A stretch of DNA of 64,000 nucleotides from Rhodanobacteraceae bacterium ZG21-1 (lineage in GTDB: Bacteria; Pseudomonadota; Gammaproteobacteria; Xanthomonadales; Rhodanobacteraceae), in assembly GCA_021390615.1 (NCBI GenBank), contig JAJEJU010000024.1, positions 372,001-436,000 of the forward strand. Reading direction: 5' to 3'. Below, piece after piece: positions 12,872-30,995 of this stretch. How positions within the stretch are numbered: position 1 is the stretch's first letter; the number at the start of each line of letters is the position of its first letter. The position numbers and the translations under genes were made by a program. The notes under the pieces were generated by a model. That model made no database searches and was not told where the DNA came from. It saw nothing but the letters and a program-made list of their open reading frames with translations.

Positions 12872-14104
12872 TCACGGCGCGCGCTTCAGCGCGAGCACGG
12901 CGTTCAGTCCGCCGAACGCGAACGAGTTGCTCAGCGCCGCGCGCACCGGCATGACGCGCGCCACGTTGGGCACGTAGTCGAGATCGCAGGCAGGGTCGAC
13001 CACGTCGAGGTTGGCGGTCGGGGGCACCACGCCTTCGCGCAGGGCCTGCACCACCGCGACCAGTTCCAGCGCGCCCGAGGCGCCCATCGCATGGCCGTGC
13101 ATCGACTTGGTCGAGGACACCGCCAGGCGCTCGGCCGCGCTGCCGAAGATCTGCCGGATCGCGCGGGTCTCGGTGATGTCGTTGGCCTGGGTGGCGGTGC
13201 CGTGCGCATTGATGTAGTCGACGTCGCCGGGCGCCAGGCCGGCATCGGCGAGCGCGCCGGCGATCGCCGCGGCGGCGCCGTTCGGGTCCGGCGCCACGAT
13301 ATCGCCGGCGTCGGCGCTCATGCCGCTGCCGCCGAATTCGGCCAGGATCTGCGCGCCGCGCGCCTGGGCCAGGTCCATCGCTTCCAGCACGAACACGCCG
13401 GCGCCTTCGCCCAGCACCAGGCCGCGCCGGTTGACGCTGAACGGTCGGCAGGTGTCGTCGGCCAGCACGCGCATCGCCTCCCAGGCGCGCAGCGTGCCGT
13501 AGTTGAGGCAGGAGTCGGTGCCGCCGACGACGGCCGCGTCGGCCAGGCCGGCGCGCAGCATCAGCACCGCCTGCGCGATCGCATGGTTGCTCGAGGCGCA
13601 GGCGCTGGCGACCACGAAGGCCGGTCCGTGCAGCTCGTGTGCCATGCTGATCTGGCTGGCCGGGGCGTTCATCATGCTGCGCACGATGGTCAGCGGGTGC
13701 ACCCGGCTGGAGTTCTCCGCATACAGCCGCTTGTACTGCTCGTCGAGGGTGGTTTCGCCGCCGATGCCGCTGCCGATCACCACCGCGGTACGCCGGTTCA
13801 GCCCGTCGCGGGCGAACTCGATTCCGCTCTGCCGGATCGCCTCGCGCGCCGCCAGCAGGGCGAACTGCGAGGTGCGGTCGAGCATCGGCAGCATGCGCTC
13901 GTCGAAGTGCGCGGCCGCATCGTAATCGGCCGGCACCTGGGCGGCCACGCGCACGCGCAGCCGCTCGGCGTCGGCATGGCGCAGCCGCGCAATGCCGCTG
14001 CGGCCTTCGCGCAGGCCATGCCACAGCGGTTCGGCGCCCAGGCCGAAGGCGCTGACCGCGCCGAGGCCGGTGATGGCGATGCGGCGATGCGCGGCGACGC
14101 TCAC
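12872..14104 (-). CDS. Beta-ketoacyl-ACP synthase, FabF/NodE-type (dedicated)
   Basis: 410 residues, full-length type II condensing enzyme. The active-site set is intact: Cys169 (VASACASSNHA), His301 (NAHGTATQAND), Lys333 and His338 (STKSMHGHAMGASG). It elongates acyl-ACP by two carbons with malonyl-ACP. It starts at a GTG whose TGA overlap with the preceding ACP gene couples the two. There is no FabG, FabZ or FabD nearby, and the gene sits beside an N-acyltransferase and an aminotransferase. It is therefore more likely a specialised synthase giving an unusual acyl chain (as NodE/NodF do) than the housekeeping FabF. Enzyme class is secure; pathway is inferred. Confidence 0.9.
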   Translation of the reverse strand: MSVAAHRRIAITGLGAVSAFGLGAEPLWHGLREGRSGIARLRHADAERLRVRVAAQVPADYDAAAHFDERMLPMLDRTSQFALLAAREAIRQSGIEFARDGLNRRTAVVIGSGIGGETTLDEQYKRLYAENSSRVHPLTIVRSMMNAPASQISMAHELHGPAFVVASACASSNHAIAQAVLMLRAGLADAAVVGGTDSCLNYGTLRAWEAMRVLADDTCRPFSVNRRGLVLGEGAGVFVLEAMDLAQARGAQILAEFGGSGMSADAGDIVAPDPNGAAAAIAGALADAGLAPGDVDYINAHGTATQANDITETRAIRQIFGSAAERLAVSSTKSMHGHAMGASGALELVAVVQALREGVVPPTANLDVVDPACDLDYVPNVARVMPVRAALSNSFAFGGLNAVLALKRAP

Positions 14105-14373
14105 GCCGCGCCGTCCTTGCTCGCCAGCGCCTTGTTCACCGCATCGACCAGGCTCTGTACGGTGTCGGTGTCGAAATTGGTGCCCTGGTCCGGGAAGGTG
14201 ATGTCGAAGTGTTCCTCGATGTCGAAGATCACTTCGATCGCGTCCAGCGAGGCCACGCCGAGATCCTTCAGGGTGGACTCGGGACGAATCATCGCCGGGT
14301 CGACCTTGGCCTGCTTGGCGATGATCTCGGTGATCTGTGCCGGAATGTCGTTGGTTGGGCTGTCGTTGGTCAT
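14101..14373 (-). CDS. Acyl carrier protein (dedicated)
   Basis: 90 residues with the four-helix ACP pattern. The phosphopantetheine site is Ser42 in LGVASLDAIEVIF. The usual Asp before the Ser (D-S-L) is replaced by Ala, which sets it apart from housekeeping AcpP. The C-terminal half is acidic, with FDIEEHFDITFPDQ as in many specialised ACPs. It must be charged by a phosphopantetheinyl transferase encoded elsewhere. It is the first gene of a two-gene unit with the ketosynthase (GTGA overlap) and divergent from the N-acyltransferase gene. Confidence 0.92.
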   Translation of the reverse strand: MTNDSPTNDIPAQITEIIAKQAKVDPAMIRPESTLKDLGVASLDAIEVIFDIEEHFDITFPDQGTNFDTDTVQSLVDAVNKALASKDGAA

Positions 14374-14711
14374 GGGACAACGTTCCTCGCTCGCCGGTGG
14401 CAGTGGCCCGATCATAGAGCCTGTCGGCCTGTTTCGAACCGTCCGCGGCGTCCGGGCCCTCGGGCCTGGCCGGGGCGGGTCGGCACGGCAGGCGGCAGGT
14501 TCGCGCAAGGCCGTCGTCGCCGCGTCCTCGCGTGTTGCCCGGGGGACGATCTCATCGCGCGCCGGTGTATCGGCATACACTTTGTCGTCGCGGCCTGGTG
14601 GGCCTGCAGGCGCACCGCTGCGGAGGCGCGGTACGAGTCCCCGCTTGGGCTTCGTACCATCCGGCATCGCCTCACCGGCTTTTACCTCAGTCTAATCGGC
14701 CCGGCTTCCTC
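14374..14711. other. Intergenic region between the ACP and N-acyltransferase genes
   Basis: 338 bp between divergently transcribed genes; it must hold both promoters. No convincing -35/-10 pair, repeat or small gene was recognised. TCTAAT at about 14691-14696 is a possible -10 for the rightward genes. Confidence 0.5.
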
Positions 14712-15794
14712 ATGCCTTTCATCGCGCAACTCGAACCAGATGCCTTGCTGCGGCACTTCATGGCGCATCCTCCGCTGGGTTTTGTTGCGAACTGGTCGCC
14801 GCAGGGCGCGGCCGCCTTCGTGGCGCCGTTCGATCTGCTGACCACGGCCGAGGACGATCTGCGTCGCCGGGTCGCCGCGATGCCGGGCTACCGGCGCTGG
14901 TCCCGCCTGCTGCGCTGGCGCACCCGCTTCGTCGGCACCACCGTGTCCGAGTACGCGCCGCTTCCGCGCGAGGTGGCGCCGGCGGAGCTGGCACGTGGAC
15001 TGCGCCAGGCCTACGGGCGCGAGCATGCGCTGTTGATCGTGAAGGACATAGCTACGGATTCGCCCTTGCTGGACGCGGCGGACAACGCCTACACGCGCGA
15101 CTTCGCCGCGGCCTGCGCCGCGCAGGGCTTCGTGCTGCTGGAGGGCCAGGCGCTGGCCTGGGTGCCGATCGACTTCGATTCCGGCGAGGAGTATCTGTCG
15201 CGGCTCTCCTCCGGCCGGCGCAAGGACATCCGGCGCAAGCTGCGCAGCCGCGCCGGGCTCGACATCGAGCGGGTGCCGCTGGGCGACGCGCGCTTCTTCG
15301 ACGAGGCGGTGCTGGCCGAGTACCAGGCGCTGTACCGCAACGTCTACGCGCAGAGCGAAATCCATTTCGACGAACTGTCGCCGGCGTTCTTCCGCGACGT
15401 GCTGCAGGAAGGCGCCAGCGGCGGCGTGGTGTTCGTGTACCGCCACGCCGGCGTGATGATCGGCTGGAACCTGTGCTACGAGCACGGCGGCAAGCTGATC
15501 GACAAATACGTCGGCTTCGCCTATCCGCAGGCACGCGAGCACAATCTGTATTTCGTCAGCTGGATGCACAATCTGGAATACGCGCGCGAACGCGGCCTGA
15601 GCCATTACGTGGCCGGCTGGACCGACCCGCAGATCAAGTCGTATCTGGGCGCGCAGATGACCTTCACCCGGCATGCGGTGTATGCGCGCAATCCGCTGCT
15701 GCGATGGTTGCTGCGGCGTATCGGCGGCCATTTCGAAAGCGACCGCGCCTGGCAGGACGGCGCGTCCACGGTACCTACGGAGCCCCGCGCATGA
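14712..15794 (+). CDS. GNAT/FemAB-like N-acyltransferase
   Basis: 360 residues. The C-terminal half matches the BioF2/FemAB-like GNAT fold (Acetyltransf_6): a basic RRKDIRRKLR stretch near 175, then the strand/helix series GGVVFVYRHAGVMIGW, KLIDKYVGFAYP, HNLYFVSWMHNLEYARERGL and YVAGWTDPQIKSYLGA. The N-terminal half has no close recognised domain. Such proteins transfer acyl or aminoacyl groups to amines. Next to a dedicated ACP and ketosynthase it is the natural candidate to use their acyl chain. It overlaps the ureohydrolase-like gene by ATGA. Start chosen at the first ATG of the conserved part; upstream in-frame sequence is not protein-like. Confidence 0.75.
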   Translation: MPFIAQLEPDALLRHFMAHPPLGFVANWSPQGAAAFVAPFDLLTTAEDDLRRRVAAMPGYRRWSRLLRWRTRFVGTTVSEYAPLPREVAPAELARGLRQAYGREHALLIVKDIATDSPLLDAADNAYTRDFAAACAAQGFVLLEGQALAWVPIDFDSGEEYLSRLSSGRRKDIRRKLRSRAGLDIERVPLGDARFFDEAVLAEYQALYRNVYAQSEIHFDELSPAFFRDVLQEGASGGVVFVYRHAGVMIGWNLCYEHGGKLIDKYVGFAYPQAREHNLYFVSWMHNLEYARERGLSHYVAGWTDPQIKSYLGAQMTFTRHAVYARNPLLRWLLRRIGGHFESDRAWQDGASTVPTEPRA

Positions 15795-16660
15795 AGCAGC
15801 CCGTCGTTCTCGACATCGACCGCTCGGTCGGCCCGCTGCCGGGACAGCACGTGCTGCCGCTGGCCGAATGGCAGGAGGCGGTGCGCTTCGGCTGCTCGCT
15901 GCGCACGCTGCGTCGCTTCGGGCGTGCGCTGGAGGCGGCCTTGCCGGCGAGCTACGGCACGGTGTTCTTCGGCAGCGGCGATTTCCACCACCTCAGCTGG
16001 CCGCTGATCCGGCGGCTCAGCCCGCGCGCCTCGTTCCAGGTGGTGGTGCTGGACAACCATCCGGACAACATGCGCTTTCCGTTCGGCGTGCACTGCGGTT
16101 CGTGGGTGCGCCGGGTAGCCATGCTGCCGCAGGTGAGCCACGTGCACGTGCTCGGCATCACCTCGCCGGACATCGGCGCCGGCCACGCCTGGGAGAACTA
16201 CCTGACCCCGCTGCGCCGGCACAAGCTCAGCTACTGGTGCATGGACGTCGACGTGGGCTGGGCCAGCCGCCTCGGCCTGGCGCACGCCTTCCATCGCCAC
16301 GACGATCCGGAGGCCCTGCTGGATGCCTTCATCGAGCAGCAGCGCACGCATCATGAGCCGGCCTATCTGTCGATCGACAAGGACGTGTTCGCGCCCGACG
16401 TGGCCCGCACCAACTGGGACCAGGGCCGGCTGCGCGCCGAGCATGCGCTGGCGCTGATCGACAGCCTGCGCCACGGCCTGGTCGGCAGCGACGTCAACGG
16501 CGAGATTTCCTCCTACCGCTACCGCAGCTGGTGGAAGCGCAAGCTTTCCGCGATGGACGAGCAGCCCGAGGTCGACGTGGCCCAGCTGGCCGACTGGCAG
16601 GCCCAGCAGCATGCGCTGAACCTGCGCCTGCTCGAGGCGATCGGCGCGCGCGGCGGTTGA
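15791..16660 (+). CDS. Ureohydrolase (arginase/agmatinase/deacetylase)-fold metalloenzyme
   Basis: 289 residues. The dimetal site of the arginase superfamily is recognisable but altered: GSGDFHH (residues 61-67) in place of GGDHS, D-N-H-P-D (Asp88, His90, Asp92) for DAHxD, and S-I-D-K-D (Asp196, Asp198) for SxDxD. All acidic and His ligands of a two-manganese centre are therefore present. Family members hydrolyse guanidino groups (arginine, agmatine, guanidinobutyrate) or related amides. The altered motifs place this outside classical arginase, so the substrate should not be assumed. It is coupled to the N-acyltransferase by an ATGA overlap, which points to a role in modifying the same molecule. 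Confidence 0.75.
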   Translation: MKQPVVLDIDRSVGPLPGQHVLPLAEWQEAVRFGCSLRTLRRFGRALEAALPASYGTVFFGSGDFHHLSWPLIRRLSPRASFQVVVLDNHPDNMRFPFGVHCGSWVRRVAMLPQVSHVHVLGITSPDIGAGHAWENYLTPLRRHKLSYWCMDVDVGWASRLGLAHAFHRHDDPEALLDAFIEQQRTHHEPAYLSIDKDVFAPDVARTNWDQGRLRAEHALALIDSLRHGLVGSDVNGEISSYRYRSWWKRKLSAMDEQPEVDVAQLADWQAQQHALNLRLLEAIGARGG

Positions 16661-16775
16661 GGTCGCGCGCGGCGGCTCCGCGCGTGCAGGGTCAGCGCAC
16701 GCGCCGGTGGCAGGTCCAGCGAAGCCTGCGGCTGTGGCACCATGCGCGCTCGCTGTTAATGCGGCAGGAGACGGC

Positions 16776-17891
16776 ATGACCATGAAGGACATTCCCCTCG
16801 CGCAGACCATCAAGAGCGCGATCGACGATGCGCTGAAGGAGCGCGGCGAAGCCAACGTGCTGGTGGTCGGCAAGACCGGCGTCGGCAAGAGCACCCTGGT
16901 GAATACGGTGTTTTCCGGCCGCATGGCCGACACCGGGCAGGGCCGGCCGGTGACCCAGGAGATGCGCAAGATCAGCAAGAGCGGCATCCCGGTGTCGATC
17001 TACGACACTAAGGGCCTGGAGGTGAAGGACTACCGGCCGATCCTCGAGCAGACCCTGCGCGCGGTCGGCGAGATCAATGCCGGCGCCGATCCGAACAAGC
17101 ACATCCACGTCGCCTGGCTGTGCATCGGCGAGGACTCGGCACGGGTCGAGGAAGCCGAGGTCGAGCTGGCCCGCGCGCTGCACGAGCGGCAGATCCCGGT
17201 GATCGTGGTGATTACCAAGGCGATCGCCGACAACGGCTTCAAGGCGGTGGTCGAGGGTTTCTTCCCGTTCGCCCGCAACGTGGTGCGGGTGAACTCCGAA
17301 CCGAAGGTGCTGGACGGCGGCCTGGTGATTCCCGTGCATGGCGTCGAGAACCTGGTCGACGTGACGATGGAGGTGATCCCAGACGGCCAAAAAAACGCCT
17401 TCGCCGCCGCGCAGCGCATAAAGATCCAGCACAAGGTCGATAGATCGCGTGCGGTGGTGCTGGCGGCGGCGGGCAGCGCGGCCACGGTCGGGGCGGTGCC
17501 GATCCCATTTGCCGACGCCATCGGCATCATCCCGGTGCAGATCGGCATGCTGGCCTCGATCACCGCGATCTTCGGCCTCGACGTGTCCACCGGCTTCCTC
17601 ACCACCCTGGTCGGCGGCACCTTCACCTCGATCTCCGGCACCATGGGCGGGCGCGCCCTGGTCGGCGGCCTGCTCAAGCTGATTCCCGGGGCCGGTTCGC
17701 TGATCGGCGGCACCATCTCCGCGACGGTGGCCGGCGCCATCACCACCGCTTTCGGCGAAGCCTATATCGCGGTGCTGAAGGGCCTGCTGAGCGCGCACCC
17801 GGACCATGCGCCCAGCGCGGTGGAAATCAGCGAAGCCTTCAAGGAAAAGCTGAAGTCGGTTTCGCCCGGCAAATGGATCGGCAGGGGCTGA
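16776..17891 (+). CDS. Era/YcjF-like GTPase with DUF697 membrane domain
   Basis: 371 residues. The N-terminal G domain has P-loop GKTGVGKST (32-40), switch II DTKGLE, and a G4 position reading TKAIAD, so the usual Asp three residues after Lys is displaced. The C-terminal half is a DUF697-type region with hydrophobic helices and Gly-rich turns (AGSAATVGAVPIPFADAIGIIP, then VGGLLKLIPGAGSLIGG). It is probably a membrane-associated regulatory GTPase of unknown target. A GCAGGAG ribosome site precedes the ATG at 16776. It lies 115 bp after the ureohydrolase-like gene on the same strand and is convergent with the aminotransferase operon; whether it belongs to that pathway is unclear. Confidence 0.8.
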   Translation: MTMKDIPLAQTIKSAIDDALKERGEANVLVVGKTGVGKSTLVNTVFSGRMADTGQGRPVTQEMRKISKSGIPVSIYDTKGLEVKDYRPILEQTLRAVGEINAGADPNKHIHVAWLCIGEDSARVEEAEVELARALHERQIPVIVVITKAIADNGFKAVVEGFFPFARNVVRVNSEPKVLDGGLVIPVHGVENLVDVTMEVIPDGQKNAFAAAQRIKIQHKVDRSRAVVLAAAGSAATVGAVPIPFADAIGIIPVQIGMLASITAIFGLDVSTGFLTTLVGGTFTSISGTMGGRALVGGLLKLIPGAGSLIGGTISATVAGAITTAFGEAYIAVLKGLLSAHPDHAPSAVEISEAFKEKLKSVSPGKWIGRG

Positions 17892-17910
17892 GCCGCGCCG
17901 GCCGGCGTGG

Positions 17911-19140
17911 TCAGCGCAATGCCGCCTGCAGGCGTTCGCAGATGTGCTCGAAAGTGGCGTCGTCCAGCCAGGGGCTGTTGCTGATGGTCAGGCTGCGCGC
18001 GGCGAAGTCGCGCGCGCGCGGCACGTCCTGCTGCGGCACGCAGTCGCCGAGGTAGGCGTAGTCGGGCAGGGCGTGGATGAACAGCCGGCTGACCCCCAAG
18101 CCGGCCTGCCACAGCTGCGCCAGGGCAGCGTCGCGCCGTGCCTGGTCCGGCATCAGCAGCATGAAGAACGGCCAGCTGCCCTGGTCGCCGGGCCGGTCTT
18201 CCAATACACGCAGACCATCGATGGCGCGCAGGCGCGGCAGGCGCTGCTGCGCCTGCGCCTGGGTCTGCGCCAGGAAGTCCGGCCAGCGTCGCGCCGCATG
18301 CGCGCCGATCGCCTGGCGCCAGCGGCCGACCCGGTGCAGCGGAATGTCCAGCGCGAACTCGTCGCCCACCGCAGCGACCGGATCGCCGCGTCGCAGCGCG
18401 CGCCGCAACGGCGCGCCATAGGCCAGGCGCAAGCCGCGTGGCCGGTAGAGCAGGGCATAGCCCAGCAGCTCGAGGCTGCGCCGCCATTCCCAGGCCAGGC
18501 TGGCCGGAACGTGGCGCGCGCTGCTTTGCCGCAGCGCCTCGCGCATCGTTTCGTCGCGCGCCGTCAGCAGGCCGCCTTCGTAGATCGACAAGCCCTTGCC
18601 GGCGGCCAGGCTGAAGAAGCCGAGGTCGCCGCGCAAGCCCACGCTCTCGCCGGCGTGGCGCGCGCCCAGCGCCTGCGCCGCATCCTCGATCACCCAGGCA
18701 CCGACCTCGCGCGCAATCTCGAGTGCGCCGTCGACGTCGGCGACGCGGCCGCCGAGATGAGTGGGCACGATCGCCAGGGTGTGTTCGTCGCAGGCCGCGG
18801 CCAGGGCCTGCGGATCCATGTCGTAGTGATCTGGCAGCAGATCGCACAGGTGCAGTTCCAGCCCGGCGCGGCGCACCGCCAGCGCGACCAGCGGGCAGGT
18901 ATACGCCGGCACCACTACCGTGCGTCGCTGTGGCGCCAGCTCGCGCAAGGCGAGCAGGCTCACCACCAGGGCGGCGGTGCCCGAGCATTCCAGTTGCAGC
19001 GGTGGCGTGCCGAGCTGGGCGGCCACGCCGGCGGCGAGTCCACCGCCGTGCGAGAACAGGTCGCCGGCCCGCAGCGGCAGGCCGGCCGTGGGCGGCAGTT
19101 CATGGCGTGTCGCTTGCGCGGGGTGCGGGCGTGCGCTCAT
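17911..19140 (-). CDS. DegT/DnrJ/EryC1/StrS-type PLP aminotransferase
   Basis: 409 residues of fold-type I aminotransferase. SGTAAL (53-58) would bind the cofactor phosphate, and IEDAAQ (151-156) holds the pyridine-binding Asp153 and Gln156. Lys182 in AAGKGLSIYEGG is the Schiff-base lysine. The family transaminates keto-sugars on nucleotides (as ArnB does), usually with glutamate or glutamine as amino donor. It is the last gene of the minus-strand run hydrolase-EamA-EamA-DegT, 15 bp after the second EamA gene. An aminotransferase next to paired EamA half-transporters recalls ArnB with ArnE/ArnF. The sequence is divergent, so a sugar substrate is not certain. Confidence 0.85.
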   Translation of the reverse strand: MSARPHPAQATRHELPPTAGLPLRAGDLFSHGGGLAAGVAAQLGTPPLQLECSGTAALVVSLLALRELAPQRRTVVVPAYTCPLVALAVRRAGLELHLCDLLPDHYDMDPQALAAACDEHTLAIVPTHLGGRVADVDGALEIAREVGAWVIEDAAQALGARHAGESVGLRGDLGFFSLAAGKGLSIYEGGLLTARDETMREALRQSSARHVPASLAWEWRRSLELLGYALLYRPRGLRLAYGAPLRRALRRGDPVAAVGDEFALDIPLHRVGRWRQAIGAHAARRWPDFLAQTQAQAQQRLPRLRAIDGLRVLEDRPGDQGSWPFFMLLMPDQARRDAALAQLWQAGLGVSRLFIHALPDYAYLGDCVPQQDVPRARDFAARSLTISNSPWLDDATFEHICERLQAALR

Positions 19141-19155
19141 CGCTCGCCTCGTCGG

Positions 19156-19578
19156 CTAGCCGGCGGCCGGGCTGCTGGCGTCGGCGCCGTCCTCGGCTTC
19201 GTGCTCGTGCGATTCGGCCAGGCCCAGGCAGACGATGCCGCCGATGATCAGCACGGCGCCCAGGGTGCGCGCCACGGTCAGCTGCTCGTCGAACAGCCAG
19301 ATCGACAGCAGCATCACCGACACCACTTCCAGGTGCGAGGCGGCGAAGGCCGGCCCGATCGGCGCGGTCTTGAGCAGGCTCATATAGGTGAAGAAGGCGC
19401 CGACGTAGCCGATCACCGCGCCGTAGACCCAGGGATGGCCGAACACGCGCATCAGCCAGGCCATGCTGGCCTCGACCGGCAGGGCATGGTCGCCGGCGTA
19501 CTTGAAGCTGATCTGCGACAAGGTGTCGAAGCCCATCAGCAGCAGGAAGCCGAACAGGTAGAAATATCCGCGCTTCAT
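19156..19578 (-). CDS. EamA-type half-transporter (4 TM), subunit 2
   Basis: 140 residues with four predicted membrane helices (about 5-20, 50-68, 78-97, 103-121) and a charged cytoplasmic tail (ESHEHEAEDGAD). This is the size of SMR/ArnE-ArnF-type half units, not of full ten-helix EamA proteins. It probably forms a heterodimer with the preceding gene product. Paired half units of this class flip undecaprenyl-linked sugars or export small polar compounds. The start ATG overlaps the stop of subunit 1 (ATGA). Confidence 0.85.
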   Translation of the reverse strand: MKRGYFYLFGFLLLMGFDTLSQISFKYAGDHALPVEASMAWLMRVFGHPWVYGAVIGYVGAFFTYMSLLKTAPIGPAFAASHLEVVSVMLLSIWLFDEQLTVARTLGAVLIIGGIVCLGLAESHEHEAEDGADASSPAAG

Positions 19579-19934
19579 CCGGCGGCTCCCACCACGGCGA
19601 CGCCCACCGTGACCAGCAGGATGCCGATCACCCGCAGGCGGGTCAGCTTCTCCTTGAACAGCCAGCGGCCGGCCAACATGATCACCACCATGTCGATCGA
19701 GCCGAGCAGCACGCCGCGGGTCAGCGGCCCCTGCGACAAAAAGGCGATCCACACCGGGAATTCCAGCACGTAGCAGGCCACGCCGATGATCAGCCATGGC
19801 CGCGCCAGCATGTGCCGCCAGCGCGCCAGACCGTCGCCGGCATGCGGATCGCTGGCGGCCGCTTTGAAGGCGAGCTGGCCGCCGGTGTCGAGCACCAGGT
19901 TGAGCAGCCACAGCGCGGTCGCCAGCGGAGTCAT
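19575..19934 (-). CDS. EamA-type half-transporter (4 TM), subunit 1
   Basis: 119 residues with four predicted helices (LATALWLLNLVLDTGGQLAF, a segment around 45-65, GVLLGSIDMVVIMLAGRWLF, VIGILLVTVGVAVVGA). The Gly-Ser...WLFKEKLTRLRVIG segment is typical of EamA/SMR proteins. The start overlaps the hydrolase stop and the stop overlaps the subunit 2 start, so all three are translationally coupled. It is likely an obligate partner of subunit 2 in the inner membrane. Confidence 0.85.
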   Translation of the reverse strand: MTPLATALWLLNLVLDTGGQLAFKAAASDPHAGDGLARWRHMLARPWLIIGVACYVLEFPVWIAFLSQGPLTRGVLLGSIDMVVIMLAGRWLFKEKLTRLRVIGILLVTVGVAVVGAAG

Positions 19935-20764
19935 GCGGCGGCGGCTTCGGACTTGTTGGCGGCGATGCGCTCGAAGAATTCGGCCGAGCGCGCGATCAGG
20001 GTGCGACGATCGCGATCGATGGTAATCATGTGGTAGCTGTCTTTGAGCAGCAGCAGCTCGGTCGGCCCCTGCACGCGGCGGATCACTTCCTGCGCGTTGT
20101 CCACGCTGGCCACGTCGTCCTCGCTGGCGTGCGCGACCAGGCACGGCGCGGTGACCTGCGGCAGCTGGCGGCGCACCTGGCGCGACAGCTGGTACAGCTC
20201 GGCCAGCGAATACCATGGGTTGCCGGGCAGGCCGGCGGCCGCGCTGTCGCCGCCCAGCATCGCCGCGCTGATCTGCGCGCGGATGCGCTCGTCGCGCAGG
20301 CCGTACGGCGGCTCCTCGTCGAACACGCGGCCGCGGCCGATGCCGAGCCGCTTGAACAGCGGCAGCAGAAAGGACAGCTTGGCCTTCCACGGGATGTTCC
20401 AGCCGTCGTAGCGGAAGGTGGCACCGTACACGCCCACGCCGGCGACCATGCCGGGATGGTCGGCGGCCAGCTTCAGCGCCAGCAGCGCGCCCATCGACAG
20501 GCCGCCCACGAACAGCTGGTCGACCTTGCCCTTGAGCGCCTGCGCGGCCTGCTCGACGCTGGCGTACCAGTCGTGCCAGCCGGTGGCCAGCAGGTCCTCG
20601 ACGTCGCCGCAGTGGCCGGCCAGCTGCATGCCGTGCACGGTATAGCCTTCGCGATTCAGGCCCTTGCCGAGCATGCGCATTTCCATCGGCGTGCCGGTGA
20701 GGCCGTGGATCAGCAGCACGCCGCGGCGATCACCTTCGAAGAAAAATTCGGACGGCTGAATCAT
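19931..20764 (-). CDS. Alpha/beta hydrolase (Est30/monoacylglycerol-lipase-like carboxylesterase)
   Basis: 277 residues, no signal peptide. Catalytic elements: oxyanion loop HGLTGTP (20-26), nucleophile Ser90 in G-L-S-M-G, acid in the ASEDDVASV segment and His in DSYHMIT near 250. This is the small carboxylesterase/MGL family that cleaves acyl esters. The ATG at 20764 starts the conserved part; an upstream in-frame start would add 12 unrelated residues. It is the first gene of the coupled operon with two EamA units and DegT. In this setting it may trim, release or recycle an acyl group, which is inference. Confidence 0.85.
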   Translation of the reverse strand: MIQPSEFFFEGDRRGVLLIHGLTGTPMEMRMLGKGLNREGYTVHGMQLAGHCGDVEDLLATGWHDWYASVEQAAQALKGKVDQLFVGGLSMGALLALKLAADHPGMVAGVGVYGATFRYDGWNIPWKAKLSFLLPLFKRLGIGRGRVFDEEPPYGLRDERIRAQISAAMLGGDSAAAGLPGNPWYSLAELYQLSRQVRRQLPQVTAPCLVAHASEDDVASVDNAQEVIRRVQGPTELLLLKDSYHMITIDRDRRTLIARSAEFFERIAANKSEAAAA

Positions 20765-20944: not shown

Positions 20945-21859
20945 TCAGGCTTTCGGCGCGGCCGGGAACTGCACCAGCACGCGCTGGCCGATGCGCAGCT
21001 CGGCCGGCGGCGGCTGGTCGAAGGTCAGCACGCATTCGACCGTGCGGGTATTCGCGCGCACCTGCGGATCCTCCTCCAGCGTGCTGGCGCCGAACACGCC
21101 GCCGATGCGCAGCACGTGGGCCTTCAGCGAGGACTGGCGGCTGTTGCCGTTGTCTTCCACCACTTCGGCGGCCATGCCGGGATGGATCGCGTCGACGAAG
21201 GATTCGTTGAGCTCGGCGCGCACGATGCGGGTTTCGTCCGGCAGCAGCACGAAGGCAGGCCCTGCGGTGGGCGATACCGTCGCGCCGGGCTGGATCAGCC
21301 GGCGCACCACCTGCGCGTCGACCGGCGCGTGCAGGCTGCGCTGGCCGAGCTCGTAGCGCGCCGCGGCGATCTTCTGTGCGGCCAGCGCCGCATTGGCCAG
21401 GGCCGAATCGCGTTCGCCCTGCAGCTGCTGCACGTTTTCGCGTGCATCGTCGGCGCTCTGGCCGTCGCCGGCGCCGGCCGAGGCGGCGGCCGCCAATCGC
21501 TGGGCGCGCTGCTGGGCGCCCTGGATGCGCTGGTCGAGCAGCTTGGCCTGGCTCTCGGCCTGCTTCTGTTCGGCCTGTGCCGCATCGACCGCGAGCTGGG
21601 CGGCCTCGGTGTCCAGGGCCGCCAGCAACTGCCCCTTGTGCACGTGATCGCCCTCGTGCACGGCGATGCTGGCGACCACGCCTTCGCGTGGCATGCCGAG
21701 CTTGAGCAGGCCGCCCTCGATGTCCACGCGTCCGCGCGCCACCGCGGCGTAGGGCGAGGCGGCCGGCGCCGGTGCCGTCGACGTGTCGCCGTGCGAACAG
21801 CCGGCCAGCAGCGCGGCGGCCAGCAGCACGATCGACGGACGGAGGAAGCGCGGGCTCAT
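20945..21859 (-). CDS. Periplasmic adaptor (HlyD/MacA/DevB family), lipoprotein
   Basis: 304 residues. The lipoprotein signal has lipobox LLAGC, so it is anchored in the inner membrane facing the periplasm. It has a biotinyl-lipoyl-like half motif (EGVVASIAVHEGDHVHKGQLLAALD), a long coiled coil (about 90-175, rich in Q, A and E), the second lipoyl half and a beta-barrel domain. It links an ABC pump to an outer-membrane channel. It is the last of four coupled genes; its ATG overlaps the ATPase stop. Confidence 0.92.
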   Translation of the reverse strand: MSPRFLRPSIVLLAAALLAGCSHGDTSTAPAPAASPYAAVARGRVDIEGGLLKLGMPREGVVASIAVHEGDHVHKGQLLAALDTEAAQLAVDAAQAEQKQAESQAKLLDQRIQGAQQRAQRLAAAASAGAGDGQSADDARENVQQLQGERDSALANAALAAQKIAAARYELGQRSLHAPVDAQVVRRLIQPGATVSPTAGPAFVLLPDETRIVRAELNESFVDAIHPGMAAEVVEDNGNSRQSSLKAHVLRIGGVFGASTLEEDPQVRANTRTVECVLTFDQPPPAELRIGQRVLVQFPAAPKA

Positions 21860-22611
21860 GCGGAGGATTCCATGGAAGCGGAGAAGGGCGGAGCGGGCGG
21901 CGCCGGCACGGCGGCGACATGGTCGCTCAGAATACGGCCGTCTTCCATCGACAGCACGCGGTCGGCGTGACCGACCAGGCGCGGGTCGTGGCTGACGCAC
22001 AGCACGGTGGTGCCGTGGCTGCGGGCGATGCGATGCAGGATGTCGATCACGATCTGGCCGTTGGCGGCGTCCAGCGCGCTGGTCGGTTCGTCGGCGAACA
22101 GCAGGCCGGGCTCCTTGGCCAATGCGCGCGCAATCGCCACGCGCTGCTTTTCGCCGCCGGACAGCTCCGACGGGCGCAGCTGCATGCGCGGCCCCATGCC
22201 CACTTCTTCCAGCGATGCGGTGGCGCGGCGCCGGGCCTCGGCGGGCGTCAGGCCCAGGTAGCTCAGCGGCAGCTCCACCTGCTCCAGCGCATTCAGCGCC
22301 GGGAACAGGTTGAAGCCCTGGAACACGAAGCCGGTGTGCCGCAGGCGGAAGCGCTCCAGCGCGTGTTGGTCGAGCCGGCTCAGTTCCTCGCCGAGGGCCA
22401 TCACCTGGCCCTGGTCCGGCCGCTGCAGGCCGCTGAGGATGGCCAGCAAGGTGCTCTTGCCGCAGCCGGAGGGACCGGAGATCAGGGTCAGCTCGCCAGG
22501 GTTGATGTCCAGCGACAGGTCGTGCAGCACGGTGCTGCGCAGCCGTCCGGATACGAACGACTTGGCGACATGGCGGGCCTGCAGAGAGGCGTTCGGCGCG
22601 GAATCGGCCAT
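21856..22611 (-). CDS. ABC transporter ATP-binding protein (LolD/MacB/DevA type)
   Basis: 251 residues. Walker A GPSGCGKST, Q-loop FVFQGFNLFPALN, signature LSGGEKQR, Walker B LLFADEP and H-loop VSHD are all present. The sequence is typical of the stand-alone ATPases that partner FtsX-type permeases (LolD, DevA, YknY). It powers the adjacent permease at the inner membrane. There are 3 bases between the permease stop and this start, and the stop overlaps the adaptor start. Confidence 0.95.
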   Translation of the reverse strand: MADSAPNASLQARHVAKSFVSGRLRSTVLHDLSLDINPGELTLISGPSGCGKSTLLAILSGLQRPDQGQVMALGEELSRLDQHALERFRLRHTGFVFQGFNLFPALNALEQVELPLSYLGLTPAEARRRATASLEEVGMGPRMQLRPSELSGGEKQRVAIARALAKEPGLLFADEPTSALDAANGQIVIDILHRIARSHGTTVLCVSHDPRLVGHADRVLSMEDGRILSDHVAAVPAPPAPPFSASMESSA

Positions 22612-22614
22612 CGC

Positions 22615-23748
22615 TTACCTCAGCAGGCTGGCGGGATCGGCGCGGCGCAGGCTGCGCATCGCGGCCAGGCCCGAGACCATCGCCAGCAGCATGGTCAGGC
22701 CGAGACAGAGAATGGTCGGCATCGGATACAAGGCCACCGGCACGCTGCGGCTGCGCGCCAGCGCCAGCAGCAGCATGCCCATGGTCGCGCTGCCGACCAG
22801 GCCGAGCGCGCCGACCCAGAACGCCTGCTCCAGCACTACCTTGCGCAAGGCGCCGACACCCACGCCGAGCGCGTTGAGGGTGGCGTATTCGCGCACCGAG
22901 CCGACCACCGCGGCGACCAGGGTCTGGCTGGTGATCACCGCGCCGACCAGGAACACGATGCCGGCCAGGAACAGCACGCCGGCGCCGGCGCCGGTGTCGA
23001 GGATCCAGTACATCTGCGAACGGCGCGCGAACTCCTGCTTGGTCCACACCGCATAGCTGCCGAACGAGGCCGCGCCGGAGAGGCGTCGCGCCACTTCCCG
23101 GCTGCGCGCGGGATCGCGCACGCTGGCGACGAAATAGGTGACGCGCCCGCTGTCCTGCGGATCGACGTCGAGCTCGCGCGCGGTGTCCAGCGAGGACACC
23201 ACGTTGACCCCGCCGAGCGCGCGCAAGCCGTTGCTGACCCCGACCACGCGCACGCGATGGCCGTTGATCGCCGCGGTGTCGCCGACGCTCACGCCCAGGT
23301 TTTCGAGGTCGGCGCGATCCACGATCACCGCATCGGGCTCGTTCAGCAGGGCGCGCAGCCGTGGCGGCAGCGCCTGGGCGAACATCATGCCGTCCGGGCG
23401 CGGGTCGATGCCGGAGACGAACACCGAGACGCCGCCGGTGTCCTTGGGGCCGCGCCAGTCGGCGTCGACCCAGCGGAACGGCTCGACGCGCACCACGTCG
23501 GGGTCCATGCGCAGGCGCATTTCCACGCCCTCGTCGATCGGCCGCCCCAGGTTCACGCTCTGCGTGCCGGGATAGCCGACCCATAGCTGGGCCGAAGAGC
23601 CGGTGATGTAGACGCTGGCGCTGCCGAAGATGCCGAGCACCAGGGCCGCCTGCAGCAGCTGCAGCAGGCCGGCGAAGCACACCGCGAGGATCGCCGGCAG
23701 AAAGCGGCGCCATTCGTAGACCAGGGTTTTGCGGGCAAGGGCGACCAT
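22615..23748 (-). CDS. FtsX/DevC-like ABC permease
   Basis: 377 residues. One N-terminal helix (about 17-40), a large periplasmic domain (about 45-255) and three C-terminal helices form the FtsX/MacB topology without a fused ATPase. Phrases such as DPDVVRVEPF and the closing RRADPASLLR fit the DevC-like group of separate permeases. MacB-type systems extract lipids or amphiphiles from the periplasmic leaflet. The ATG overlaps the last base of the outer-membrane factor's TGA. Confidence 0.9.
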   Translation of the reverse strand: MVALARKTLVYEWRRFLPAILAVCFAGLLQLLQAALVLGIFGSASVYITGSSAQLWVGYPGTQSVNLGRPIDEGVEMRLRMDPDVVRVEPFRWVDADWRGPKDTGGVSVFVSGIDPRPDGMMFAQALPPRLRALLNEPDAVIVDRADLENLGVSVGDTAAINGHRVRVVGVSNGLRALGGVNVVSSLDTARELDVDPQDSGRVTYFVASVRDPARSREVARRLSGAASFGSYAVWTKQEFARRSQMYWILDTGAGAGVLFLAGIVFLVGAVITSQTLVAAVVGSVREYATLNALGVGVGALRKVVLEQAFWVGALGLVGSATMGMLLLALARSRSVPVALYPMPTILCLGLTMLLAMVSGLAAMRSLRRADPASLLR

Positions 23749-25214
23749 CAGTCGGCACCCTTGTGCGCAGCGGCCGGCGAGGTCGCCGCGTTGCCGTCGT
23801 CGGGCAGCGGAGCGCCGCCGAGCGCCTTGTACAGTGACACGTAGGCCAGATCGCGCGCAGCGCGCGCGGACACCAGCTCCAGCTCCGCACGGCGGCTTTC
23901 CAGCTGGCTGTCCTGCCATTCCAGCGGGCTGCCCAGGCGCAGTTCCACACGCTTCTGGGTGATCGCGCCGCCTTGCTCGACCGCCTGCAGGGCCTGCTGG
24001 CTGGCGCTCTCGCGCGCCTGCAACTGGTGCAGGTCGCCCATCGCCGTCTCCGCTTCGGCCACGCCCTGCAGCACTGCCTGTCGGTAGGCCAGCAGCGCGG
24101 CCTTGAGGTCGTGGCTCTTGGCGTGGGCGAGCGACACGCGCTGGCCCCAGTCGAACAGCGGGATGTCGATGATCGGGCCGGAAGAGGCGATGCCTTCGCC
24201 GCTGTGGATGTGGTTGTAGTTCGAGGTGATGTTGACCGACCACTGCAGCGAGGTGCCGAGGCCGATGTTCGGATAGATCGCCGCGCGGCTGAGGCCCAGG
24301 TCGCCGGCGGCGCGCAGCACGTTGGCCTCGGCGGTGGCGATCTCGGGACGGGTGCGCAGCAGGTCGGCCGGCGCCGTCTGCAGTTGCCAGGCGCCCAGCT
24401 GCGGCTGCGGGCCGGGCTGCAGCCATTGCGGATCGGGTTCGTTCTGGCCGACCAGCACCGCCAGCTGCTGGGCGCTGCCGATGATCGCCTGCTGCGGCTC
24501 GGCCAGCGCCGCATCGGCGCGCGCCAGCTCGGCCTGCGCATGCGTCACGTCGAGCTGGGGAGCCAGCTTCAGGCTCTGCCGCACCTGCAGCAGGCGCAGC
24601 TTCTCGGCCTGGGCGTCGCGGATCGCGCCGAGCAGGCGCAATTGTTCCTGCGCCGAGCGCAGCTCGATCCACTGGCGGGTGATTTCGGCGACCAGCGAGA
24701 CGCGCGCGCCCTGCAGCTCGGCGCGCGCCAGGTTTTCCTGGCCCTGTGCCTGGCGGCCTGCGCTCTGCCAGGCGCCGAACAGGGGCAGCTCCCACACGGC
24801 GTCGAAGCCGACCAGGAAGTACGACGCGCTGGTGTCGGGATTGATCACGTCGTTGGTGCGGCCGTGCAGCGCCGGCAGGTAGCCGTCGTGCGAATGCCGG
24901 TTCAGGATGCGCGCCGAGCGCACGCGTTCGGCGGCCTGTGCGACGTCCAGGTTATTGCGCAAGGCGCGCTCGATCAGGGCGTCCAGCTGCGGGTCGCCCA
25001 GCGCCGTCCACCAATGGCGCAGGTCGGCCTGCGGCGTGGCGGCGGGTCCCAGCTCGCCGTTGCGCCAGGTATTCGGCACCGAAGGCTTGAGTTCGGGCAG
25101 GGGCGCCACGCTGCAGCCGGCGAACAAAACCAGGCCGGTCGCCAGCAGCAGGCTGCGGATGCCATCCGATCGGCGCACGGGTTTCGGCAACAGCGGATGC
25201 GTGATGGCGGGCAA
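23748..25214 (-). CDS. Outer-membrane efflux factor (NodT/OprM family), lipoprotein
   Basis: 488 residues. The lipoprotein signal has lipobox LFAGC near residue 31-35. Two TolC-type OEP repeats follow, with long alpha-hairpins (LDALIERALRNNLDVAQAAERV, RPEIATAEANVLRAAGDLGLSRA) and beta-barrel strands. It forms the trimeric outer-membrane channel. It is the first gene of the operon OMF-permease-ATPase-adaptor, an unusual order that gives a self-contained tripartite pump. The promoter must lie in the 182-bp gap shared with the divergent HAD phosphatase gene. Confidence 0.93.
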   Translation of the reverse strand: MPAITHPLLPKPVRRSDGIRSLLLATGLVLFAGCSVAPLPELKPSVPNTWRNGELGPAATPQADLRHWWTALGDPQLDALIERALRNNLDVAQAAERVRSARILNRHSHDGYLPALHGRTNDVINPDTSASYFLVGFDAVWELPLFGAWQSAGRQAQGQENLARAELQGARVSLVAEITRQWIELRSAQEQLRLLGAIRDAQAEKLRLLQVRQSLKLAPQLDVTHAQAELARADAALAEPQQAIIGSAQQLAVLVGQNEPDPQWLQPGPQPQLGAWQLQTAPADLLRTRPEIATAEANVLRAAGDLGLSRAAIYPNIGLGTSLQWSVNITSNYNHIHSGEGIASSGPIIDIPLFDWGQRVSLAHAKSHDLKAALLAYRQAVLQGVAEAETAMGDLHQLQARESASQQALQAVEQGGAITQKRVELRLGSPLEWQDSQLESRRAELELVSARAARDLAYVSLYKALGGAPLPDDGNAATSPAAAHKGAD

Positions 25215-25396: not shown

Positions 25397-26098
25397 ATGA
25401 CCCCCTGGAAAATCCTCTGCGACTTCGACGGCACCATCTCCGTGGAGGACGTGATCGACTCGCTGCTCGACCGTTTCGGCCGTCCCGGCTGGGAAACGCT
25501 CGAGCAGGATTGGCGCGCCGGCCGCATCGGCTCGCGCGAGTGCATGACCGGCCAGGTCGAACTGCTCGACATGAGCCGCGACCAGCTCGACCATCACCTC
25601 GATGGGTTGTGGATCGATCACGCCTTTCCCGCCTTCGTGGCCAAGACGCGCGAGCTCGGCATGCCGATCCGCGTGGTCAGCGATGGCCTCGACTACGCCA
25701 TCCACAAGATCCTGGGCCGCTACGGCCTGGATGATCTGCCGCTGGCCGCCAACCACCTGTCGCCGGCGCCGCCGCCACGGCAGTGGCAGCTGACCTCGCC
25801 GTTCCAGGCCGAAGGCTGCCGCAGCGGCACCTGCAAGTGCGCCTGCGTGGCCCAGGCCCGCGCCAGCGGCGCGAAGACCTTGCTGATCGGCGACGGCGCC
25901 TCGGATTTCTGCGCCGCCGACCGCGTCGATTTCGTGTTCGCCAAGCATCGCCTGATCGAGCACTGCCGCGCCGCGGGCATTCCCTACGTGCCGATCACCG
26001 GCTTCGAGGACGCCCTGGAACTGCTGCCCCGCCTGTTGGACGGCAGCCTGGTGGCCGAGCATGTCCGCCATGAGCCTGCCGTCGCCAACGCGCACTGA
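25397..26098 (+). CDS. MtnX-like HAD-IB family phosphatase
   Basis: 233 residues. HAD motif I is DFDGT (residues 9-13), motif II is VVSDG (about 94-98) and the later GDGASD is motif III. A Cys-rich stretch (CRSGTCKCAC, about 141-150) lies between them and may bind metal or be structural. Relatives are phosphoserine-phosphatase-like enzymes including MtnX of methionine salvage, but no other salvage genes are nearby, so the substrate is unknown. The ATG at 25397 is used; a TTG at 25379 would add six residues. It lies 67 bp before a class III aminotransferase gene and is probably cotranscribed. Confidence 0.8.
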   Translation: MTPWKILCDFDGTISVEDVIDSLLDRFGRPGWETLEQDWRAGRIGSRECMTGQVELLDMSRDQLDHHLDGLWIDHAFPAFVAKTRELGMPIRVVSDGLDYAIHKILGRYGLDDLPLAANHLSPAPPPRQWQLTSPFQAEGCRSGTCKCACVAQARASGAKTLLIGDGASDFCAADRVDFVFAKHRLIEHCRAAGIPYVPITGFEDALELLPRLLDGSLVAEHVRHEPAVANAH

Positions 26099-26165: not shown

Positions 26166-27575
26166 ATGAACGCCTACGATCCGAACGCCGCAACCGGCGT
26201 GATTCCCGACGCCCAGTTGCTGGCCGACGAGGCCCAGTACAGCTCCTTCGGCGACACCGTGCACTATGTCGACCCGCCGAAGATCTTCCGCCACGGCGAA
26301 GGCAGCTGGATGTACGACACCGCCGGCGTGCCGTTTCTGGACCTGCAGATGTGGTACTCCGCGGTCAATTTCGGCTACGGCAACAAGCGCCTGAACGACA
26401 CGCTGAAGCGCCAGATCGATGTGCTGCCGCAGGTGGCCAGCCAGTATCTGCACCAGACCCGCATCGAGCTGGCCAAGACCATCGCGGTCGACGCGCAGCA
26501 GAAGTTCGGCGTGAAGGGCCGCGTGCACTTCAACGTCGGCGGCGCGCAGGCGGTGGAGGATTCGCTCAAGCTGGTGCGCAACTTCAAGAACGGCAAGAGC
26601 CTGATGTTCGCCTTCGAGGGCGGCTATCACGGCCGCACCCTGGGCGCTTCCTCGATCACCTCCAGCTACCGCTATCGCCGCCGCTTCGGCCACTTCGGCG
26701 AGCGCGCGATGTTCATCCCGTTCCCGTATCCGTTCCGCCGCCCGAAGGGCATGACGCCGGAAGAGTATTCGGACGCCTGCGTGCGCCAGTTCGAGCGCCT
26801 GTTCGAGACCGAATACAACGGCGTGTGGGACCCCAAGGTCAGCCAGGCCGAATACGCCGCCTTCTACGTGGAGCCGATCCAGGGCACCGGCGGCTATGTG
26901 ATCCCCCCGAAGAATTTCTTCAAGGATCTGAAGCGGGTGCTGGACAAGTACGGCATCCTGATGGTGGTCGACGAGATCCAGATGGGTTTCTGGCGCACCG
27001 GCAAGCTGTGGTCGATCGAGCACTTCGGCGTGACGCCGGACGTGATCGTGTTCGGCAAGGCGCTGACCAACGGTCTCAATCCGCTCTCGGGCCTGTGGGC
27101 GCGCGAGGAGATGATCAATCCGCAGATCTTCCCGCCGGGCTCGACCCATTCCACCTTCAACTCCAACCCGCTCGGCACCTCGCTCGGCCTCGAAGTCATC
27201 AAGATGGGCTACGAGCTGGACTACGAGACCAATGTGGCCAAGAAGGGCGCGCACTTCCTCGAGGCGCTGAAGGACCTGCAGAAGCGCCACAAGGAAATCG
27301 GCGACGTCGACGGCCTTGGCCTGGCGCTGCGCGCCGAGATCTGCACCGACGACGGCTTCTCGCCGAACAAGGCGCTGCTGGACAAGATGGTCGACATCGG
27401 CCTGGCCGGCGACCTCGAGCACAACGGCAAGAAGATCGGCCTGGTGCTGGACGTGGGCGGCTGGTACAAGAACGTGATTACCTTCGCGCCCTCGCTGGAC
27501 ATCACCCACGAGGAGATCGACCTGGCGATCAGCCTGCTCGATCAGCTGCTGACCAAGGCGAAGAAGCTGGTCTGA
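26166..27575 (+). CDS. Class III PLP-dependent aminotransferase (GabT-like)
   Basis: 469 residues. GGAQAVEDSLKL binds the cofactor phosphate, FEGGYHGRT is the aromatic stacking region, VVDEIQMGF carries the pyridine-binding Asp, and the Schiff-base Lys lies in VFGKALTNG. The STHSTFNSNPLG segment is typical of the family. It transaminates an omega-amino or similar amine to a 2-oxo acid. It differs from ordinary 4-aminobutyrate aminotransferases in the N-terminal 45 residues. The upstream HAD phosphatase suggests a two-step route acting on a phosphorylated amino compound, which is an inference. A strong terminator follows. Confidence 0.88.
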   Translation: MNAYDPNAATGVIPDAQLLADEAQYSSFGDTVHYVDPPKIFRHGEGSWMYDTAGVPFLDLQMWYSAVNFGYGNKRLNDTLKRQIDVLPQVASQYLHQTRIELAKTIAVDAQQKFGVKGRVHFNVGGAQAVEDSLKLVRNFKNGKSLMFAFEGGYHGRTLGASSITSSYRYRRRFGHFGERAMFIPFPYPFRRPKGMTPEEYSDACVRQFERLFETEYNGVWDPKVSQAEYAAFYVEPIQGTGGYVIPPKNFFKDLKRVLDKYGILMVVDEIQMGFWRTGKLWSIEHFGVTPDVIVFGKALTNGLNPLSGLWAREEMINPQIFPPGSTHSTFNSNPLGTSLGLEVIKMGYELDYETNVAKKGAHFLEALKDLQKRHKEIGDVDGLGLALRAEICTDDGFSPNKALLDKMVDIGLAGDLEHNGKKIGLVLDVGGWYKNVITFAPSLDITHEEIDLAISLLDQLLTKAKKLV

Positions 27576-27598
27576 GCCGATATCTCGGCAAGGCCATC

Positions 27599-30288: not shown

Positions 30289-30995
30289 CTCTGGTGACCG
30301 GCCGGTTCGTCCGCCGGGGCCGATCCGGCGGGCACCTCTTCCAGCAGATAGCCCAGACCGCGGATGGTGCGCACCTGGGTACCCGACTCGGCCAGCTTGC
30401 GGCGCAGGCGGTAGATGGCGATGTCCAGCCCGTTGTCGGTGAGCTCCTCGTCCCAACTGCATAGGGCTTCGATCAGCTGGGAGCGGCTGGTGACGCGGTC
30501 CGGCCGCGCCGCGAGGGCCTCGAGCAGACCGAATTCGCGCGCGGTCAGCTCCAGCGGCGTCTCGTCGACCCAGGCGCGATGGCCGGGCAGATCCAGGCGC
30601 AGCCGGCCGATCGCCAGCTCGGGCGCGCCCTGGGTGGTGTAGCGGCGCAGCAGTGCGCGCACGCGTGCCTCGAACTCGGCGAGGGCGAACGGCTTCACCA
30701 GGTAATCGTCGGCGCCCAGGTCGAGCACGCGCACGCGCTCGCGCAAGTCGTCGCGCGCAGTGAGCACCAGCACCGGCAAGCTGGTGCCGCGCCGGCGCAG
30801 CCGATGCAGCACTTCGCTGCCGTCCAGCCCGGGCAGGCCGAGGTCGAGCACCAGCAGGTCGTAGGGCGTGTCACGCAGGGCGGTGTCGGCAGTGCCGCCG
30901 TCGGAGACGTGGTCCACTGCATGCCCGCCTTGGCGCAGCGCGGCGCTCACGCCGGCGGCAATGGCCGGATCGTCCTCGACGATCAGGATGCGCAT
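30285..30995 (-). CDS. OmpR-family response regulator (QseB/TctD-like)
   Basis: 236 residues. The receiver domain (1-115) has phospho-acceptor Asp51 (VLDLGLPG), the acidic pair at 8-9 and Lys in YLVKPFA. The winged-helix effector domain (about 125-222) includes ELTAREFGLLEAL and NGLDIAIYRLRRKL. It forms a two-component pair with the overlapping kinase gene. No target site was identified in the 260 bp upstream. Confidence 0.95.
   Translation of the reverse strand: MRILIVEDDPAIAAGVSAALRQGGHAVDHVSDGGTADTALRDTPYDLLVLDLGLPGLDGSEVLHRLRRRGTSLPVLVLTARDDLRERVRVLDLGADDYLVKPFALAEFEARVRALLRRYTTQGAPELAIGRLRLDLPGHRAWVDETPLELTAREFGLLEALAARPDRVTSRSQLIEALCSWDEELTDNGLDIAIYRLRRKLAESGTQVRTIRGLGYLLEEVPAGSAPADEPAGHQR

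Follow-up and report, generated by a model that had tools for sequence, protein, structure and literature searches.

A widespread gene set for a putative exported amide in Rhodanobacteraceae bacterium ZG21-1 and its relatives

A 64,000-nucleotide stretch of the Rhodanobacteraceae bacterium ZG21-1 genome (contig JAJEJU010000024.1, positions 372,001 to 436,000; the window) holds an unusual assortment of genes. Those for an acyl carrier protein (ACP) and a ketoacyl-ACP synthase (KS) diverge from those for a putative N-acyltransferase (NAT) and a ureohydrolase-like enzyme (ARG), and these face genes for a hydrolase (HYD), two half-size EamA membrane proteins (EAM1 and EAM2) and a DegT-family aminotransferase (DEGT). 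An earlier note proposed that these eight genes, taken as a locus at 12872-20764, make an amino compound, acylate it with a specialized chain and flip it across the inner membrane. The locus raises the question of whether such genes form one unit and, if so, what they could make. Comparison with related genomes indicates that they do form a unit and that it continues to 30995. We judge it about as likely as not that this whole interval encodes a single regulated pathway, the product of which would be a lipid-like amide synthesized in the cytoplasm and then exported.

Occurrence and extent of the gene set

Two genome samples were used, 200 genomes from the order and 398 from the phylum. The order sample has ARG in 38 genomes, DEGT in 37, and AT3, a class III aminotransferase gene located beyond HYD, in 40. 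ARG and DEGT are found together in 37 of the 200 genomes and apart in one, G150, which has a divergent version and, when its genome is searched, no DEGT at an E value of 1e-40; DEGT without ARG does not occur among the 200. ARG and AT3 are together in 37 and apart in 4. G053, G105, and G120 carry ARG and DEGT on separate contigs, so their joint retention there points to an association that exceeds linkage. The control, a neighboring GNAT gene outside the set (11878-12426), is present in 90 of the 200 genomes, comprising all 38 that have ARG and 52 that do not. Fisher values for co-occurrence are extreme, although relatedness makes the genomes non-independent and the control is a single gene. 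ARG matches are found in 17 of the 398 phylum genomes; one of these, in G218, is marginal (E 4.7e-4, without AT3) and was dropped before counting, and the remaining 16 are firm and all have AT3.

The neighborhood was compared across 80 loci, the best 80 of at least 554 relatives (among at least 590 stretches) when ranked by ARG similarity, nearly all of one family. Counts over these loci are lower bounds because contig ends or the 10-kb flank truncate some of them. All eight genes of the first block lie within the stretch in 61 of the 80, in three arrangements, and ACP/KS in 73. The co-occurrence counts, the 61 shared loci, and the GNAT control lead us to reject a chance neighborhood. The earlier note proposed looking for conservation of the neighborhood in relatives, and the lack of co-occurrence that would have counted against its reading is not observed. 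The gene set behaves as one unit, kept across families as well as classes, rearranged yet rarely separated in occurrence, and the linkage is strong.

The unit does not end with HYD. A phosphatase gene (HAD) and AT3 were recognized first at distant loci, and the same pair is present in the window past the end of the first block. HAD is found in 46 and AT3 in 48 of the 80 loci, and HAD lies beside AT3 in related loci. The interval between HYD and HAD holds genes for a HlyD adaptor, an ABC ATPase, a MacB/FtsX permease, and a TolC-family channel, so that all four components of a tripartite exporter of the MacAB-TolC type are present by family scan. HlyD adjoins HYD upstream, on the same strand and within 600 bases, in 35 of the 61 loci with room for it. 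Past AT3 come genes for a histidine kinase and a response regulator (HK and RR); the kinase gene of relatives is next to AT3, to the pump, or to HYD. The module comprises about sixteen genes at 12872-30995 (Table 1), roughly twice the size first described, and 12872-20764 is too short as the extent of the whole locus.

The two halves of the module differ in their affinities. Those in the window were compared with 20 Rhodanobacter and 18 Dyella loci from the 80 and with three additional Dyella-like loci. Most of the 12.9-20.8 kb block is closer to Rhodanobacter (medians 72-79%) than to Dyella (61-70%), EAM1 being tied at 71% to both. The pump, AT3, and the kinase pair of the window are closer to the three Dyella-like loci; for HAD the two affinities are about the same. 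Dyella-like genomes have GNAT-Rieske-pump-HAD-AT3-kinase-regulator in the order of the window, without the 12.9-20.8 kb block, which they carry at another place. In the window, the halves appear to have come together, or to have come back together.

Table 1. Genes of the module, with positions in the window
Gene	Position	Strand	Assignment
KS	12872..14104	-	FabF-like beta-ketoacyl-ACP synthase, GTG start; ketoacyl-synt
ACP	14101..14373	-	second acyl carrier protein of the genome; PP-binding
NAT	14712..15794	+	FemAB_like tandem-GNAT transferase; PF04339
ARG	15791..16660	+	ureohydrolase-fold enzyme (predicted); Arginase PF00491
DEGT	17911..19140	-	DegT/DnrJ/EryC1/StrS-family aminotransferase; PF01041
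EAM2	19156..19578	-	half-size EamA membrane protein
EAM1	19575..19934	-	half-size EamA membrane protein, weak ArnE/ArnF similarity
HYD	19931..20764	-	alpha/beta hydrolase, monoacylglycerol lipase/Est30 kind; Hydrolase_4
HlyD-type adaptor	20945..21859	-	family scan of window proteins
ABC ATPase	21856..22611	-	family scan of window proteins
FtsX/MacB-type ABC permease	22615..23748	-	family scan of window proteins
TolC-family outer membrane efflux protein	23748..25214	-	family scan
HAD	25397..26098	+	MtnX-like HAD-IB phosphatase; open reading frame (ORF) open from 25379
AT3	26166..27575	+	class III pyridoxal phosphate (PLP) aminotransferase, PF00202; ORF open from 26061
HK	28885..30288	-	sensor histidine kinase with 2CSK_N domain
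RR	30285..30995	-	response regulator with Trans_reg_C domain

All the genes named in the earlier note lie where it placed them, as judged by ORF positions and family matches. The KS/ACP overlap is GTGA and the NAT/ARG overlap is four bases, ATGA, as it described. Its facing operon, described as all coupled, is so at two of three junctions: HYD/EAM1 and EAM1/EAM2 are 4-base overlaps, and DEGT follows EAM2 after a gap of 15 bases. ARG and DEGT are separated by a GTPase gene with a DUF697 domain (16776-17891, plus strand). The stretches from 133 other loci gave no match to this gene (some genomes being represented twice and some stretches missing the site), which makes it probably an insertion particular to the ZG21-1 genome; it is rejected as a module member since no other locus showed one. 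A GDSL lipase gene (27741-28478) lies between AT3 and HK and did not turn up in any of the loci compared (20 Rhodanobacter, 18 Dyella, and three Dyella-like). In many Rhodanobacteraceae the module, or just its pump half, comes after the GNAT and Rieske ferredoxin genes (11878-12737); the pair is rejected as a module part because of the 52 genomes of the order with the GNAT gene and no ARG. Elsewhere in the window, two neighboring ORFs at 1975-5816 have near-identical secreted-protein starts, apparently a tandem duplication, and ORFs at 6737-8773 and 47220-49406, with signal-peptide starts, may encode M13 metallopeptidases.

The genes stay largely grouped in numerous bacteria of soil and plants. 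The set, or a large part of it, is present in Rhodanobacter, Dyella, Luteibacter, Xanthomonas, Rhizobium, and Agrobacterium, and ARG is found in 47 plasmid records, from Rhizobium, Roseomonas, Agrobacterium, Bartonella, Xanthomonas, and others. In Xanthomonas sacchari the row is HAD-AT3-KS-ACP-NAT-ARG-DegT-EamA-EamA-HYD-HlyD-ATPase-TolC-kinase-regulator; its permease is unannotated and seen only by tblastn, and in that record both permease and TolC are fragments that lie in more than one frame. The genes of Agrobacterium fabrum all point the same way, in the order HAD-AT3-ARG-EamA-HYD-NAT-EamA-TolC-permease-ATPase-HlyD, and Rhizobium sp. Pop5 has a core of this type with genes for a fatty acid desaturase and a member of the cyclopropane-fatty-acyl-phospholipid synthase family inside it. 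The genes of Roseomonas mucosa encode DegT, two EamA-like proteins, HAD, ARG, HYD, NAT, and a kinase-regulator pair, with an aminotransferase just 24% like AT3. A Bartonella sp. has AT3-NAT-ARG followed by AlgX-like and MBOAT genes, the rest of the set being absent from the stretch seen. An MBOAT O-acyltransferase gene and a second gene stand beside ARG in two distant lineages (L072, 6279-8721; L184, 9900-12422, where the second gene is AlgX-like), and a desaturase gene lies near the G150 locus.

Nine of the ten phylum genomes with AT3 and no ARG (all but G360) were examined around AT3. HAD and HYD lie beside it in eight of the nine, four of these eight also having KS and two a piece of NAT. 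G202, one of the eight, has the EamA pair, the pump, and a kinase as well, and at L207 AT3 stands alone. As a separate observation, G431 (loci L210 and L177) carries a NAT-ARG-EamA pair arrangement of the window type, and a second contig of this genome has HAD-AT3-HYD together with a kinase-regulator pair and a divergent NAT.

Most divergent versions lack KS/ACP in the stretches seen (copies elsewhere in those genomes were not searched for), and several, including most of those on plasmids, lack DegT there (searched for elsewhere only in G150); with this patchy distribution both look accessory. AT3, HAD, and HYD are the most persistent, followed by NAT and then by ARG and the EamA pair, and the varying parts are KS/ACP, DEGT, and the desaturase, cyclopropane-type, and MBOAT genes. 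The annotation of these genes in the five plasmid records examined consists of family names only. A full-text search brought no publication on the gene set (most subscription papers were outside its reach, and absence there is weak), in keeping with the earlier remark that no named pathway has this set. We rate the set as a biosynthesis-and-export module without a name, assembled from known families.

Folds and conserved residues

ARG matches PF00491 at 29.8 bits (cut-off 22); it has no NCBIfam match at an E value of 0.01, and a single-sequence search of the PDB gave none. Its model (predicted local distance difference test, pLDDT, 88.6) is best matched by the arginase domain 8d27_A (Z 19.1, root-mean-square deviation [rmsd] 3.1, 230 aligned), and the 50 fold matches listed are all ureohydrolases by title. 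Profile alignment to agmatinase and arginase finds the six metal ligands (H; DxHxD; DxD) complete. Residue conservation was counted in sets that exclude identical sequences, rows of 75% or less of the query length, and rows below 29% identity. The ligand motifs SGD[FY]HH, DNHPD, and DKD are present in 120/120 distinct ARG sequences, His101 in 117/120, and Glu or Asp at position 238 in 120/120; we take these last two positions to correspond to arginase His141 and Glu277. A loop, NWDQG, is atypical. The HH pair had suggested a single-metal enzyme of the histone deacetylase (HDAC) type, which is rejected as DxHxD and DxD are both kept. From its model and ligands, ARG is predicted to be a ureohydrolase-fold enzyme with a two-metal site.

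The sole Pfam match of NAT is PF04339, FemAB_like, at 35.8 bits (cut-off 27). NAT has no NCBIfam match, and against the PDB its single sequence gave one chance-level match and its profile none. The model (pLDDT 89.6) is closest to Sba18 (Z 18.3, rmsd 3.1, 253 aligned), followed by MprF (Z 17.2), FemX (Z 16-17), and N-myristoyltransferase (Z 12.8). A basic stretch, RRKxIRRKLR, is conserved. Because the nearest solved folds are tRNA-dependent aminoacyl transferases, the donor of NAT may be either acyl or aminoacyl.

In other enzymes of the module, catalytic residues are likewise intact. The catalytic Cys/His/Lys/His of KS are kept in 91/91 distinct sequences, that of the window included, and the best other copy in the genome is 39% identical. 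ACP has a single other match in the genome (E at most 0.001), 31% identical, and the six commonest patterns at its site, all with Ser, account for 81/88 sequences. DEGT has the PLP Lys in 93/93, its nearest solved relatives being perosamine synthetases and deoxy-inosose aminotransferases. EAM2 is 29% identical to EAM1. HYD is nearest to monoacylglycerol lipases and Est30-type carboxylesterases among solved structures and has GLSMG in 96/98 sequences, the two exceptions looking like wrong picks; no signal peptide was seen in it by eye. AT3 matches PF00202 at 243.5 bits and has the PLP Lys in 84/84 distinct sequences. The Thr of its NVIT motif is likewise in 84/84. Four aligned solved relatives extend to this site and three of them have Arg there, a difference that may reflect an uncommon substrate or amino donor. 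AT3 also has the highest near-invariant share, with 56% of positions at 95% identity or more, followed by KS at 36%, though the sequence sets differ.

Proposed pathway and alternatives

From the co-occurrence, architecture, folds, and residues observed, we infer the following chemistry and direction of transport. AT3 would aminate, and HAD dephosphorylate, a small phosphorylated keto compound to give an amino alcohol, a candidate route being dihydroxyacetone phosphate to serinol, and DEGT may add a second amination in this lineage. The ACP/KS pair would build or elongate a particular acyl chain, which other lineages may alter by a desaturase or a cyclopropane-synthase-like enzyme instead, and NAT would link chain and amine to form the amide. 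ARG might hydrolyze an amidino, guanidino, or related C-N group, releasing urea or ammonia, and HYD might remove or transfer an O-acyl group. EAM1 and EAM2 would flip the product over the inner membrane, the MacAB-TolC-like pump would take it from the periplasm outwards, and HK/RR may switch the gene set on. MacB pumps load from the periplasm, which fits an order of flipping followed by export. The second ACP, the intact catalytic residues of KS, the Rhizobium desaturase and cyclopropane-synthase-family genes, and the desaturase of G150 make it likely that the product contains an acyl chain. The acylated amine flipped over the inner membrane of the earlier note survives in that the genes are one unit, an acyl chain is likely, and a role for the EamA pair, as well as export, is plausible; its acyl donor is less secure, as acyl and aminoacyl donors are both compatible with NAT.

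Several observations weigh against an exported amide made by one pathway. AT3 occurs without ARG in 10 of the 26 phylum genomes that have it. G060 and G174 have HAD, AT3, and the pump without ARG or DEGT, G140 has the HAD-AT3 pair without either, and G053 has ARG and DEGT without AT3; the HAD-AT3 and ARG halves can thus serve apart from each other. In Dyella-like genomes the HAD-AT3-pump-kinase half is apart from the ARG half, and the adjacency of HlyD and HYD is limited to the 35 of 61 loci given above. The folds closest to NAT, finally, use aminoacyl-tRNA and not acyl-ACP.

It is possible but unlikely that the product is not a membrane lipid and is instead a diffusible N-acyl amine or amino alcohol (a signal, surfactant, or antibiotic) secreted by the MacAB-TolC-like pump. 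The tripartite pump adjoins the set, and plasmid carriage, scattered distribution, and variable accessory tailoring genes would suit such a metabolite. The EamA pair and a MacB-type pump also suit an outer membrane lipid, however, and HlyD is found in just 38 of the 80 loci, though many stretches stop before its site.

A split MprF-like system, which we regard as unlikely, would have NAT load a lipid or an amino alcohol with an amino acid such as arginine taken from its tRNA, ARG trim the arginyl group to ornithyl, and the EamA pair replace the flippase of MprF, yielding a cationic aminoacyl lipid that would be useful against cationic peptides. It draws on the ranking of the NAT folds, in which tRNA-dependent Sba18/Sbb17 (Z 18.3), MprF, and FemX stand above N-myristoyltransferase, on the conserved basic stretch of NAT, on the full set of ureohydrolase metal ligands in ARG, and on the overlap of the ARG start with the NAT end. 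The fold does not fix the donor, however, and AT3 and HAD are given no role; ACP/KS in 73 of the 80 loci, together with the desaturase and cyclopropane-synthase-family genes, suggest an acyl donor or tailoring. It is very improbable that the locus consists of two or more separate pathways that happen to adjoin, one formed by HAD-AT3-pump-kinase and the other by KS-ACP-NAT-ARG-DEGT-EamA-HYD: the halves are apart in Dyella-like genomes, differ in affinity in the window, and are reduced to the first in G060 and G174, but of the 200 genomes 37 have ARG with AT3 and 4 have just one of the two, all 16 firm ARG genomes of the phylum sample have AT3, and both halves are interleaved in alphaproteobacterial operons.

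A broader proposal can be put forward tentatively, and we give it limited credence. Alpha- and gammaproteobacterial lineages may share, and trade on plasmids, an undescribed class of exported amide lipids, in which an aminotransferase and a phosphatase make the head group from a phosphorylated sugar-like precursor, an MprF-fold transferase joins it, a ureohydrolase trims a guanidino (arginyl) intermediate, the acyl tailoring is swappable, and flippase, exporter, and two-component switch are the system's own. To our knowledge, a lipid-type pathway would be a novel setting for the ureohydrolase fold. Reports on Dyella and Luteibacter list unidentified aminolipids, as do those on Stenotrophomonas, where the set is not established by name. 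An exported amide lipid could account for the aminolipids of Dyella and Luteibacter, which other aminolipids could explain equally. Membrane charge, surface activity, or plant association may be affected by the set.

Comparison with known systems

NAT shares its tandem-GNAT fold with the MprF, FemX, and Sba18 transferases, as judged by comparison of models. MprF also has a flippase part. NAT differs in that by sequence it matches FemAB_like alone, and it is accompanied by a separate EamA pair, an aminotransferase, a phosphatase, and a ureohydrolase-fold enzyme. With proclavaminate amidinohydrolase and other ureohydrolases ARG shares the predicted fold and two-metal site, but it is 10-19% identical to them (among the 50 matches listed) and has a NWDQG loop of its own.

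NodF, NodE, and NodA combine a special ACP and ketosynthase with an N-acyltransferase. The earlier analogy to this Nod factor system holds for the special ACP and ketosynthase beside the transferase, an arrangement that is not seen in the divergent operons; NAT is not NodA by Pfam, and KS/ACP are not universal in the module. The analogy to ArnB, ArnE, and ArnF is similarly partial. The Arn pathway also has a DegT-family enzyme beside two half-size EamA proteins, and weak ArnE/F similarity is present here, but both fall far below the curated cut-offs (DEGT 70 bits against 631 for ArnB; EAM1 29 bits against 92-99 for ArnE/F).

A model for the type of step proposed for AT3 and HAD is provided by RtxA, which aminates dihydroxyacetone phosphate, with dephosphorylation giving the amino alcohol serinol (PMC3222319). 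The parallel is a possible one, drawn from the reaction described.

The proposed order of the module also resembles that of the Caulobacter ceramide pathway, which runs through Spt, bCerS, and CerR. Spt belongs to family PF00155, and no match to this family is present among the scanned locus proteins (the rest of the genome was not searched). bCerS is a FemAB_like/GNAT protein. N-acylation in that pathway is cytoplasmic and is followed by movement to the periplasm and outer membrane (PMC11087976), and to that extent N-acylation followed by outward movement is common to both. The module differs from the ceramide pathway in having a class III aminotransferase, a HAD phosphatase, ARG, an EamA pair, and a pump.

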